Source: Candidatus Auribacterota bacterium
Lineage (GTDB): Bacteria > Auribacterota > JAFGBW01 > JAFGJP01
Direction: 5' to 3'
Assembly: GCA_023144635.1 (NCBI GenBank)
Contig: JAGLFH010000062.1
Span: 62,001 to 126,000, forward strand
DNA: 64,000 nt
Shown here: positions 33,045 to 38,425 of the stretch, piece after piece
How positions within the stretch are numbered: the first letter of the stretch is position 1
Layout: every line of letters starts with the position of its first letter
Translations under genes and position numbers: made by a program
Notes under the pieces: model-generated
Databases searched by the model: none
Told to the model about the DNA's origin: nothing
Seen by the model: the letters and a program-made list of their open reading frames with translations, nothing else

Positions 33045-34106
33045 TTGAATCCCGTTAAAAAATACAGTTTAAGTGATTTTGATTACTCCTTACCGAATAA
33101 TTTAATTGCAAAATACCCGGCCCGCCCAAGAGATTCTTCCAGGCTTTTTGTTGTTGATACAAAAAAAAATGTTTTTTATCATGATTCATTTTTTAATCTA
33201 GATAAATATCTTTCACCTCATTCTTTATTGGTAGTAAACAATACTAAAGTTTTTCATGCACGTCTTATTGCAATCCGAGAAAAAGACTCAAAATCTTTTG
33301 AGTTCTTACTTCTTCATTCATCTAAAAAAAATCACCTTATATGGAATGTGCTTGTAAGCTCATTAAAAAGATTAAAGACAGGTGATCTTTTTAAAACAAC
33401 AAAAAACAATTTTCATTTTCGGTTTTTGGCAAGAAAAGATGATGAAGGTATAATTGAGTTCCTGGAAGGTAATGATCCGTTTGATGCTATGGAAAAAGAA
33501 GGTATGCCTCCGCTTCCTCCTTATATAGATCGTGATACAACTAAAAAAGATATTTCTTACTACCAGACTATTTATGCAAAAGAATCGGGATCTTCTGCAG
33601 CACCTACTGCAGGACTTCATTTTACAAATCGCGTATTTGAAAAACTGGAAAATAGAAAAAACATAAAAACCACATTTGTAACGCTTCATGTAGGACGAGG
33701 AACTTTTTCACCAGTCCGTAACGAAAAACTTGAAATGCATAATATGCATTCAGAATTTTATACAGCATCAAAAGAGGCATGCAATAGACTTAATCACCAG
33801 TTAAAGAATAATAAAGATATTATTTCCGTAGGCACAACATCCCTTCGCACATTAGAAACTATTTTTAACTCAAATAAAAACACTTTCACTCCAAAAGCAG
33901 GTGAAACCGATATTTTCATACATCCTCCTATGAAAATAAAAAGCTGTAATCATATGCTTACTAACTTTCATCTTCCTAAATCGACACTTCTTATGCTTGT
34001 ATGCTCCTTTGGAGGTTATGACCTTATAATGAAAGCCTACAGGGAAGCTGTTAAGATGAAATATAGGTTTTATTCTTATGGGGATGCTATGCTTATCTTA
34101 AGATAA
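33045..34106 (+). CDS. queA: tRNA preQ1(34) ribosyltransferase-isomerase QueA
   Basis: 353 residues, the family length. Start is TTG at 33045 with AAGGA nine bases upstream; the family N-terminus YSLSDFDYSLPNNLIAKYPA follows directly. Other signatures: SRLFVVD, VVNNTKVFHARL, EGMPPLPPYI, SSAAPTAGLHFT, LHVGRGTFSPV, MHSEFY and TNFHLPKSTLLMLVCSF. It transfers the ribosyl part of SAM to preQ1 in tRNA to form epoxyqueuosine. Its pathway partner tgt is 3.2 kb away in convergent orientation, with the AbiE-like pair between. Confidence 0.95.
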   Translation: MNPVKKYSLSDFDYSLPNNLIAKYPARPRDSSRLFVVDTKKNVFYHDSFFNLDKYLSPHSLLVVNNTKVFHARLIAIREKDSKSFEFLLLHSSKKNHLIWNVLVSSLKRLKTGDLFKTTKNNFHFRFLARKDDEGIIEFLEGNDPFDAMEKEGMPPLPPYIDRDTTKKDISYYQTIYAKESGSSAAPTAGLHFTNRVFEKLENRKNIKTTFVTLHVGRGTFSPVRNEKLEMHNMHSEFYTASKEACNRLNHQLKNNKDIISVGTTSLRTLETIFNSNKNTFTPKAGETDIFIHPPMKIKSCNHMLTNFHLPKSTLLMLVCSFGGYDLIMKAYREAVKMKYRFYSYGDAMLILR

Positions 34107-34991
34107 AGCATCAAAAATAGTAAAAGCTATTTAGCCACAGATTCACACAGATAAACACAGATTAGAAAAGAAGGTTCTTGCAAAGGACTAACAATTAAAA
34201 GCAAATAGCTAATATGCTGGCAAAGCATATTCACCACAGAAAGAGAGATTTTTAGACAATATTTTCACCTTTAGCAAGTTTTTTCTACCAGTTTTATTTT
34301 TTCTTTCTGTCCTCTGTTATCTATCTTCTGTTTTCTGTTCTTCCATACGCCTGCTTGCCCGCCTCAGGAGGGCGTCATAAAATATTCACAAGCCTCACAT
34401 CTTCAGCACACTTATTATCAACAAAGCTGCGGGTGGGATACTTTTTTATAAAGAAGAGTTTAATACAAATTGTCCTGCCACCTGTTTAAAGTTAGCTTGC
34501 CAAACTGAGCAAAGCCAAAAGAAATAAAATCAAAGGAGATACATGCAGATTTAGACATCAATTTTTTTTTATAACAACTAACGGCTAATTACTAGCGAAG
34601 CTTATTCACCAAAGAGAAACAAAATAAAAAGTTGTCATCCCTGCGAAAGCAGGGATCCATACAAAAATAAATTCAAAAAAGCTAACAGCCTCAAGCCTAT
34701 CTCAGGGAAAAGCATCTTTATCCACATTTAGAGAAACATTTTTCGAAGATCCGCCAGTACTTTGCAAGGTCCCTAATGCAAGTTTTAGCAATAAAACTAT
34801 AGTGGGTGGAGGACAACACACTTATTATCAAATAGAATACGGGGGTATATTTTTTGTAAATTATATATATTTCTCTTTAGCAAATAGGATAAACTAGAAA
34901 ATATAAAAGTACATTTGGATAAATCTCTATTTTGATATAGCCAGTTTAAAACTAAAATAATTTAACACGTATTATACCGAATTTTAAAAAC
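34107..34991. repeat. 885-base gene-free region with degenerate repeats
   Basis: No gene is credible here. It holds CCACAGATTCACACAGAT (34133), a CCTCTGTTATCTATCTTCTG tract (34311), a GCCCGCCTCAGGAGGGCG fragment (34355), and a TCTGTTTTCTG-type text. Two copies of CACACTTATTATCAA (34407 and 34817) are each followed by CGGG and then a T-run and TAAA about 30 bases later, so they are copies of another small element. A TTATCCACA (34718-34726) is isolated. The AbiEii-type gene begins directly after, with no clear promoter. Confidence 0.5.
34637..34656. repeat. Small hairpin repeat (CCCTGCGAAAGCAGGG)
   Basis: Perfect 8-bp arms ATCCCTGC/GCAGGGAT with a GAAA tetraloop, preceded by GTC and followed by CCAT. 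This GTCATCCCTGCGAAAGCAGG-type motif is a well-known intergenic palindrome in many bacterial genomes. Confidence 0.75.
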
Positions 34992-35876
34992 ATGAAAATA
35001 GAGTTAAAACAGTTAGAAAATATCAGGAAATTAGCCATTATTGCTATGGTTTCTGACGATGATCTATTTCAAAGATTGGTTTTAAAAGGTGGTAATGCCA
35101 TTGATTTTATTTACCATGCAGCAGGAAGATCTTCTTTAGATGTTGATTTCTCGATGGAGAAAGACTTTAAAAAAAATGAAATAGAAATATTTGGGGGAAA
35201 AATAAGAAAAAGTATAGAAAAAACATACCTTGAAAACGGATATTATCCATTTGATATAAAGTTCACCCAAAGACCAAAAAGAAAATCAGAACAACAGCCT
35301 AATTTTTGGGGTGGATACCTAGTTGAATTTAAACTTCTTGATAAAAATGAATATGAAAGCCTAAAAACAAATATAGAAAAGCAACGTAGAGAAGCAATAA
35401 TTATTGATAAAGAAGGAAAAAGAATATTTAAAATAGATATCAGCAAATATGAATTTTGCTCAAAAAAAGAAAAAAAACAATTAAATGATTATACGGTGTA
35501 TGTATACACCCCCACGATGCTTATTTTTGAAAAATTAAGAGCACTTTGTCAACAAATGCCAGAATATAAAAAGATTATTCATTGCGCAACATCACCAAGA
35601 TCAAAAGATTTTGTAGATATATATTTTCTAAACCAAAAATATCCAATAAATATTAAAGCTAAAGAGAATAAAAATCTGTTATTAAATATATTTAAGATCA
35701 AAGACGTCCCTTTGAACTTTTTAGAGAAAATAAAGAACCATAAAGAGTTTTACAGAAGAGATTATGATTCTGTTAAAGATACGGTTAAAACAGGGATAAA
35801 GCTAAAAAGCTTTGATTTTTACTTCAATGAAGTTCTAGAAATAATTGAAACATTAAAAATCTTTTGGATAAAATAG
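34992..35876 (+). CDS. AbiEii-like nucleotidyltransferase toxin
   Basis: 294 residues. Nucleotidyltransferase signature: LKGGNAIDFIYH (31-42), the GG/GS element, then SLDVDFSM (48-55) with the two metal Asp. A later PTMLIFEKLRAL (about 173-184) and SPRSKDFVDIYFL carry the conserved Lys and Asp of motifs III and IV of AbiEii-type enzymes. The family includes phage-abortive toxins that block tRNA function by adding nucleotides. The partner is the antitoxin-like gene on the opposite strand, with which it shares 24 bases at the 3' end. No ribosome site is seen before the ATG. Confidence 0.8.
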   Translation: MKIELKQLENIRKLAIIAMVSDDDLFQRLVLKGGNAIDFIYHAAGRSSLDVDFSMEKDFKKNEIEIFGGKIRKSIEKTYLENGYYPFDIKFTQRPKRKSEQQPNFWGGYLVEFKLLDKNEYESLKTNIEKQRREAIIIDKEGKRIFKIDISKYEFCSKKEKKQLNDYTVYVYTPTMLIFEKLRALCQQMPEYKKIIHCATSPRSKDFVDIYFLNQKYPINIKAKENKNLLLNIFKIKDVPLNFLEKIKNHKEFYRRDYDSVKDTVKTGIKLKSFDFYFNEVLEIIETLKIFWIK

Positions 35877-36728
35877 ACGCCACTTTTTTGAATAAGATGT
35901 TTTTCCCATCTGGTGGGTAAGATAAAAATCATAATCCATACCAAGCTCAACAAGAAGATCTAACAACTTTTGTTTGCAGCCAGCACGATCAAGATAAAAG
36001 CCTATAACTTGATGATAAGGGTAAATATAATTTATTTTTTTAAGTAGCGCTGTTAGCTTATTAACAGAAACTTGCTCTAATGCTCTTTTGAAAGCTTGTT
36101 GAACCTCATAAATTCCACCAGCATAGACAGGACGAACAGCAATATCAATTAATGTCCTCTCAATATCCGTTACTTTTAAATTACTCAATGAAGGATCTTT
36201 TAACTCACAAACGCCCAAATGACCTGTATGTTTTCCATTTAAAACACAAATATTGTGATCGCTGCATGAATAAATATTATGAGAAACCCTGACAGGTTTT
36301 TTAAAGGCATCATCTATACCTTTCTGTTTAAGAGAAACATTTCCCGTATTTTTACGAGATTGCTCATAGTTCACATAAATTGTTTTAGGTATTTGGTCTG
36401 TAAGGCCATAAAAAAATACAGCAGTATAATGTGATAAATATGAGCGAGACCTAATGGATAATGCTATCTCATAAAGAAAATCATCCCCACGATAATAGCG
36501 AACAATATCTCCTCTCTCAGATTTTAATTTTGCAATATTCAATATTCTTTTTTTAATAAGGAACTCGATTAATTTACCAGTAGTGATGTTTTGGCCAAGA
36601 CGCCAAAAATCTGAATGCTCTAAAAGAATCCCAGTCAGATCAGACTCAGAATAAGCTTTCTTATTACTATTCTCAAAGACTGATATTATGTCTTTTTTAG
36701 ATATTTCAAGACGGCTTCTATTACTCAT
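35853..36728 (-). CDS. AbiEi-like antitoxin / winged-helix regulator
   Basis: 291 residues. An N-terminal winged-helix region (about 8-75, ISKKDIISVFENSNKKAY, ITTGKLIEFLIKKRILNI) is followed by a domain with YLSHYTAVFFYGLTDQIP and KVTDIERTLIDIAVRP, both typical of AbiEi-type proteins that repress their promoters and neutralise AbiEii. AAAGG lies seven bases before the ATG. The promoter upstream is overlapped by a perfect 28-bp palindrome (36739-36766), as expected for autoregulation. Unlike the classical bicistronic AbiE operon, the gene is convergent with its toxin. Confidence 0.8.
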   Translation of the reverse strand: MSNRSRLEISKKDIISVFENSNKKAYSESDLTGILLEHSDFWRLGQNITTGKLIEFLIKKRILNIAKLKSERGDIVRYYRGDDFLYEIALSIRSRSYLSHYTAVFFYGLTDQIPKTIYVNYEQSRKNTGNVSLKQKGIDDAFKKPVRVSHNIYSCSDHNICVLNGKHTGHLGVCELKDPSLSNLKVTDIERTLIDIAVRPVYAGGIYEVQQAFKRALEQVSVNKLTALLKKINYIYPYHQVIGFYLDRAGCKQKLLDLLVELGMDYDFYLTHQMGKTSYSKKWRLFYPKDF

Positions 36729-36738
36729 ATTAATACCT

Positions 36739-36786
36739 TTGTATAATGTATATATACATTATACAATGATTTATTTAAAAAGTCAA
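36739..36786 (-). promoter_or_regulatory. Antitoxin promoter with 28-bp palindromic operator
   Basis: Minus-strand TTGACT (36781-36786), 17-base spacer and perfect TATAAT (36758-36763). The palindrome 36739-36766 has perfect arms TTGTATAATGTATA/TATACATTATACAA and covers the -10 and start site. The leader would be about 20-25 bases with AAAGG before the ATG. Confidence 0.8.
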
Positions 36787-36828: not shown

Positions 36829-36858
36829 ATACTGAGTAGTATATATACTACTCAGTAT
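36829..36858. promoter_or_regulatory. Perfect 30-bp palindrome upstream of the antitoxin promoter
   Basis: Arms of 15 bases, ATACTGAGTAGTATA/TATACTACTCAGTAT, with no spacer, 43 bases upstream of the -35. The sequence differs from the 28-bp operator except for the TATATA centre. It could be a second regulator site; nothing shows which protein binds. Confidence 0.6.
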
Positions 36859-36868
36859 ATACCTTAAA

Positions 36869-37303
36869 CATAAAATTGTCAATAAAAAATTTAAATATAA
36901 TTTAGGGTGAAACTCCTCACCTTCAGTTTACCACGGTTGGGCTGAATTTCGAAAGAAACGAGGCAGACACAGGCAAACCCTTTTCTCTTTTGTATTTCTT
37001 CGCGTCTAAAACCTCTGTGATCTCTGTGTCCGTGCTGAAAGTCCGCCCCGAAGTGTACAGCTTCACAATTACGGTAACAAATCAGCTTTTCTTAAAAACT
37101 AGGATGAACAGGAATTTAGAAAAGACGAAAATACCAGCCAACTTGTGCGCCACTGAAGTAAGAAGGAAGGCTAATTAGCTTCTCAGTTGTTAGTAAACAA
37201 ACTCTGATCCTTTTTTATCCTGTAAATCTGCGTCCCATTTCTCTTTTCTCTTCTGTTACTGAAATTGTGAAAAACTAAACGAAAGAGGATGGTGAGTTCA
37301 AAT
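36869..37303. repeat. Gene-free region with degenerate repeats between antitoxin and tgt
   Basis: 435 bases without a gene. It contains TTTGTATTTCTTCGCGTCTA, CCTCTGTGATCTCTGTGTCC (37010) and CTGATCCTTTTTTATCCTG with AAATCTGCGTCCCATTT (37203-37240). The last matches, degenerately, the tract at 42000-42050. A 62-codon frame across the first of these is only a translation of the repeats. Confidence 0.5.

Positions 37304-38425
<1,122 letters not shown>

Follow-up and report, generated by a model that had tools for sequence, protein, structure and literature searches.

A tail-to-tail AbiE-like toxin-antitoxin pair with twin palindromes in a Candidatus Auribacterota genome

Described AbiE and MenAT Systems

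Published AbiE systems are bicistronic operons in which the regulator gene comes first, with two 23-bp repeats lying 3 bp apart (Dy et al., 2014, PMC3985639). AbiGI/AbiGII of lactococci is putatively bicistronic as well (PMC3985639). In the operonic Rv2827c-Rv2826c pair of Mycobacterium tuberculosis, the antitoxin autoregulates through several repeats (PMC7319586).

The pair studied here lies in a 64-kb window, the whole stretch of DNA analysed, from a Candidatus Auribacterota bacterium. It resembles AbiEi/AbiEii of Streptococcus agalactiae in its PF08843/DUF1814 toxin, its AbiEi-fold antitoxin (6y8q) and the paired repeats at its antitoxin promoter. It differs from AbiE in that the two genes are on opposite strands, and in that the antitoxin alone is preceded by perfect palindromes, whose centres are 57-155 bp apart across the pair's clade. 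MenA3-MenT3 (Rv1044-Rv1045) of M. tuberculosis offers the closest solved toxin fold, with counterparts of R-x-S-x-D-x-D and of the Lys, but identity over the structural alignment is ~14% and the window pair is opposite-strand. Rv2827c is the closest solved antitoxin fold (1zel), but its locus has four 23-bp repeats in tandem pairs, whereas the window has two loop-less palindromes. AbiGI/AbiGII (9hlo) is the best sequence-profile match in the PDB (toxin E=5.5e-7, antitoxin E=0.003), yet distant.

The Toxin and Antitoxin Proteins

The toxin gene (34992-35876, + strand) encodes an AbiEii/MenT-like nucleotidyltransferase of 294 aa, as judged from the ORF, Pfam, the clade alignment and an AlphaFold fold match. 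Its Pfam family is PF08843 (AbiEii; E=2.5e-18), and PF08843/DUF1814 is matched by 17/17 toxins in the clade alignment. The AlphaFold models were built on five aligned sequences for the toxin and six for the antitoxin. That of the toxin is confident (pLDDT 86.7) and matches MenT3/TglT Rv1045 (E=3e-9) and JHP933. The AbiEii active-site motifs GG(N/S)A, RxSxDxD, K181 and RxxDxxD are kept unchanged across the clade alignment, in which the invariant residues are G33-G34, R46-x-S48-x-D50-x-D52, K181, R203, D206 and D209. By our own residue matching, R46, S48, D52 and K181 would be the counterparts of MenT3 R76, S78, D82 (a position taken from the PDB title of the structure match) and K189, and D50 that of a residue which we take to be D80. 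The catalytic and phosphorylation positions of MenT3 include R76, S78 and K189 (PMC11375011). Fold and motifs are compatible with MenT-type addition of nucleotides to tRNA acceptor ends.

The antitoxin gene (35853-36728, - strand) encodes an AbiEi-like protein of 291 aa with a predicted N-terminal DNA-binding region and an AbiEi C-terminal domain, as judged from the ORF, profiles and an AlphaFold fold match. The sole Pfam match above the cut-off is AbiEi_1 (PF09407) and is weak (E=5.6e-5), while PADLOC AbiEi models reach 1e-20. The Pfam AbiEi C-terminal domain is weak across the clade, with E<0.01 in just 6/18 antitoxins. The confident model (pLDDT 88.9) matches Rv2827c (E=5e-8) and S. agalactiae AbiEi (E=2e-6), and it is through these fold matches that the AbiEi architecture, a DNA-binding N-terminal domain plus an AbiEi C-terminal domain, is recognised. 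The earlier note on this DNA had named the two proteins AbiEii-like toxin and AbiEi-like antitoxin, and the Pfam, PADLOC and AlphaFold fold matches bear it out. Two more AbiEii toxins are encoded in the same genome (L082 3597-5559 and L083 3411-4653), both in ordinary antitoxin-first operons.

Convergent Layout and Overlapping Ends

The two genes are tail to tail and share a dual-coding stretch of 24 bp at 35853-35876, both stop codons included. They are read there in the same codon register, with the toxin ending in LKIFWIK and the antitoxin in LFYPKDF. This is the overlap that had been noted earlier, against a usual AbiE layout of two cistrons with the antitoxin first. That description of the usual layout agrees with the literature (PMC3985639) and with our controls, which are operonic. 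An upstream same-strand AbiEi-like gene is visible in 11 of 12 control AbiEii loci, two of them from the window's genome; the twelfth (L074) is at a contig end. The convergent layout had been taken for an oddity of this locus. It is instead the rule in the toxin's clade: the genes converge in 21/21 collected loci, the antitoxin is always the neighbour, and neither the window locus nor any of the 21 shows the bicistronic antitoxin-first operon of classical AbiE. The hosts are Bacillota, Bacteroidota, Planctomycetota, Betaproteobacteria and a phage-like contig. Both proteins align with their relatives over nearly the full length at 30-46% identity, which together with the constant layout argues that the pair is not a chance juxtaposition.

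The overlap ranges from -8 to 49 nt across the clade and is exactly 24 bp, in the same register, in 8/21 loci, whose hosts include Bacillota, Betaproteobacteria, Planctomycetota and a phage-like contig. The 24-bp stretch holds the last seven codons and the stop of both genes. Opposite an invariant antitoxin Pro, the toxin has a Trp codon in seven of the eight loci; the eighth, L066, has Arg. The toxin stop sits opposite an antitoxin Leu. These in-register ends raise the alternative that the proteins and the autorepression are as we propose below, but that the layout has no regulatory role and the dual-coding ends lock the pair against recombination. The varying overlap elsewhere is what would be expected if its length were not regulatory. 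However, the head-to-head sister clade described below has no overlap, nor do some convergent loci, so linkage survives without it. We give this alternative somewhat less than an even chance. A parB-like gene precedes the toxin in L066 (4146-5899, genome G307); its stop and the toxin start have 1 nt in common, and the two genes may be co-transcribed.

A bidirectional terminator at the convergent ends was considered and rejected, as 19 loci showed no excess over shuffled sequences. The toxin and antitoxin transcripts therefore probably overlap. Antisense control between them is possible, given the layout and the missing terminator signal.

Relatives and Sister Clade

A tblastn search of plasmids found the toxin in 39 records and the antitoxin likewise in 39, and more loci came from genome and viral searches. 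Strong matches to the clade (E below 1e-100) came from two of 384 genomes, one of them the window's own; the next matches were at ~1e-9. None of the 43 other genomes searched from the window's phylum has a toxin of this clade. The toxin had no match in the phage database, and one locus was found in viral contigs.

A sister clade (L085-L091, L094 and L023) has a homologous antitoxin and palindromes containing GTATATATAC. It differs in that its genes are head to head and the palindromes fall within the common promoter region. On plasmids it occurs in Streptococcus, Lactococcus, Ligilactobacillus, Lactiplantibacillus, Staphylococcus and Brochothrix. In the tree, the convergent and divergent clades together are split from operonic AbiEii (91/85). 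The divergent group is nested within the convergent clade, beside a convergent toxin of P. citreus, with long branches that make the deep part uncertain. The simplest history, as read from these sequences, would be a convergent ancestor and a single switch to head-to-head genes. This opposite-strand branch of the AbiE family, found across several phyla and mostly on plasmids, appears to be undescribed. We recognised no paper on a convergent or divergent AbiE in the open-access literature; an earlier description elsewhere is possible.

Promoters and Palindromes

The earlier claim that each gene must have its own promoter is supported by sigma-70-like scoring. Two candidates scoring 11/12 precede the antitoxin on the - strand. 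Predicted promoter 1 (36758-36786, TTGACT-17-TATAAT) has its -10 inside the proximal palindrome, and predicted promoter 2 (36854-36882, TTGACA-17-TATACT) has its -10 at the edge of the distal one. There are just weaker candidates for the toxin, the best of which, a weak prediction, scores 10/12 (34932-34961, + strand, TTGATA-18-AATAAT). Upstream of the window toxin we found neither a palindrome nor a clear Shine-Dalgarno sequence.

A palindrome scan located two perfect palindromes. The proximal one, with half-sites TTGTATAATGTATA and TATACATTATACAA (36739-36766), is putative operator 1, and its dyad is at the predicted antitoxin start. The distal one, with half-sites ATACTGAGTAGTATA and TATACTACTCAGTAT (36829-36858), is putative operator 2, its centre 91 bp from that of the first. 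Both predicted antitoxin start sites fall near palindrome centres. In the clade, long perfect palindromes (arms 11-21) with GTATATATAC or a variant at the core precede the antitoxin in 19/21 loci, the exceptions being L019 and L021. Before the toxin none of the 21 loci has a long palindrome; the best arm is 9, in one GC-rich locus. Shuffled sequence gives arms of ~6 on average and 11 at most. At the proximal palindrome the mean promoter score is 8.8, compared with 6.8 for random positions; 8/17 loci reach 10-11/12. Several loci, including GC-rich L008, L012, L013, L022 and L084, have no clear sigma-70 promoter there. The repeats and the promoters that overlap them fit autorepression by the antitoxin, as is known for AbiEi (PMC3985639) and Rv2827c (PMC7319586). 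The families, layout, conservation, palindromes and promoter positions given here are all read from the DNA itself.

The window holds two copies of GTATATATAC, both at the antitoxin palindromes. Five further copies in the genome have arms of just 5-8, none of them extended, and there is no enrichment over the reversed pattern. A wider palindrome regulon was rejected on these grounds. Helical phasing of the two palindromes was also rejected, by inspection, since the 57-155 bp spacings share no common phase.

The two copies of each locus were compared in 17 loci. Agreement between the copies exceeds chance at half-site positions 1-9, counted from the centre, and falls to or close to the chance level at positions 10 and 12-17; beyond position 14 there are few sites to compare. 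Thus, the inner ~9 bp per side match between the copies of a locus, and the outer arms differ, yet stay self-complementary; complementarity is perfect, mostly over 12-21 bp. Such differing arms are not expected from simple sequence-specific binding by one protein and count against the operator reading. Either shape recognition or template-switch repair could be the cause. If shape is what counts, the palindromes would act as hairpins or a cruciform of separated strands, with GTATATATAC at the tip recognised by the antitoxin or another factor. The chance-level outer arms with their perfect complementarity, and the unextended copies of GTATATATAC elsewhere in the genome, are in line with this. 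Template-switch correction of imperfect repeats could, however, keep the arms perfect without any function. In the divergent clade, where the palindromes lie between the genes, most loci carry two copies that match completely or almost completely over about 13 positions, as fits ordinary sequence recognition. An RNA hairpin is unlikely, because with the predicted start at the dyad just half of the palindrome would be transcribed. We consider such action by shape, in place of an ordinary double-stranded operator, improbable.

Long repeats are not unique to the opposite-strand clade, since long looped inverted repeats precede AbiEi in 2/11 operonic control loci. Before the operonic AbiEi of L079 (250 bp before 2910, reverse) are two inverted repeats with arms of 26-27 bp and loops of 3-4 nt, far above the usual length of an operator.

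Genome Setting and Mobility

The pair lies between queA (33045-34106, + strand) and tgt (37304-38416, - strand), both of which are confirmed. The earlier note had called this setting notable, as queA and tgt serve tRNA modification and AbiEii-type enzymes can act on tRNA, and had proposed a search for other convergent AbiE pairs together with their queA/tgt context. Convergent pairs were found, as described above, but all related loci examined have other neighbours. In three relatives from the phylum, queA sits next to tgt on the same strand and no toxin-antitoxin pair is present; in the closest relative, the DNA after tgt is unrelated. A functional link to queA/tgt was rejected on account of these different neighbours, the absence of the clade from the phylum sample and the queA-tgt adjacency without the pair. 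The setting is thus incidental. Relatives of the pair are mostly plasmid-borne, often beside replication, mobilisation or recombinase genes. A search for direct-repeat scars of insertion at the window locus gave nothing convincing. An IMG/VR contig (L084 2305-8741) carries a convergent pair flanked by terminase-like and portal-like genes, named from their translations, which suggests carriage by a prophage.

Some relatives are damaged. L095 (3356-4290) has a split antitoxin, L008 (6001-6872) a frameshifted toxin, and L023 (3004-3905) and L091 are split or fragmentary copies. These broken relatives, and the single copy in the phylum sample, would agree with the window locus being a decayed or domesticated remnant whose frames are open but whose toxin is inactive. 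Both frames are, however, of full length, every residue invariant in the clade is present, and promoters and palindromes are intact, so that we regard a remnant as very improbable.

Proposed Mechanism

Our preferred reading, to which we assign a probability of roughly 0.7 as a whole, is an acquired opposite-strand AbiE/MenAT module with a tRNA-acting toxin, an antitoxin autorepressed through the palindromes, and interference between transcripts. The pair would be a horizontally acquired, type-IV-like toxin-antitoxin module from a separate, opposite-strand branch of the AbiE/MenAT superfamily. For its toxicity, tRNA modification, neutralisation, DNA binding, autorepression and transcript interference, we infer the following. 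The toxin, most likely a nucleotidyltransferase, would extend tRNA ends with nucleotides and in this way block translation. Its partner, the antitoxin, most likely holds it inactive, possibly by modifying Ser48, as proposed for Ser78 of MenT3. It most likely also binds the two palindromes centred on GTATATATAC and so represses its own two promoters, while the toxin would be expressed from a separate weak promoter with no operator. Given convergent genes whose ends overlap, and the lack of a conserved terminator, transcription of the antitoxin gene would continue into the toxin gene. A drop in antitoxin protein would then simultaneously derepress antitoxin synthesis and raise antisense interference on the toxin.

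A HipA Partner and Implications

On plasmids of Sulfurimonas and Aliarcobacter (L093 939-3286, L102 1297-3630 and L101 1271-3600), antitoxins of this family (profile E about 1e-50) lie head to head with a HipA-family kinase gene. Twin palindromes with arms of 10-12 bp lie between the kinase and antitoxin genes, in the common promoter region. The copy of this pair on Aliarcobacter pM830MA appears to be broken. We recognised no paper on HipA with an AbiEi-type partner in the open-access literature, and it may have been described elsewhere. A tentative and rather doubtful extension is that the antitoxin and its twin palindromes form a portable control cassette, recognised partly by palindrome shape, whose partners are AbiEii tail to tail, AbiEii head to head and, on plasmids of Campylobacterota, HipA head to head. 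The HipA pairing suggests that a single antitoxin type may serve two unrelated toxin chemistries.

Operon-based finders may miss this clade, most of whose antitoxins go by "hypothetical protein". The twin-palindrome promoter is a concrete candidate operator. A clade that consistently breaks the antitoxin-first rule must balance toxin and antitoxin differently, and its layout raises the question of whether overlapping convergent transcription has a part in controlling the toxin, in line with the excludon idea (PMC7154746).
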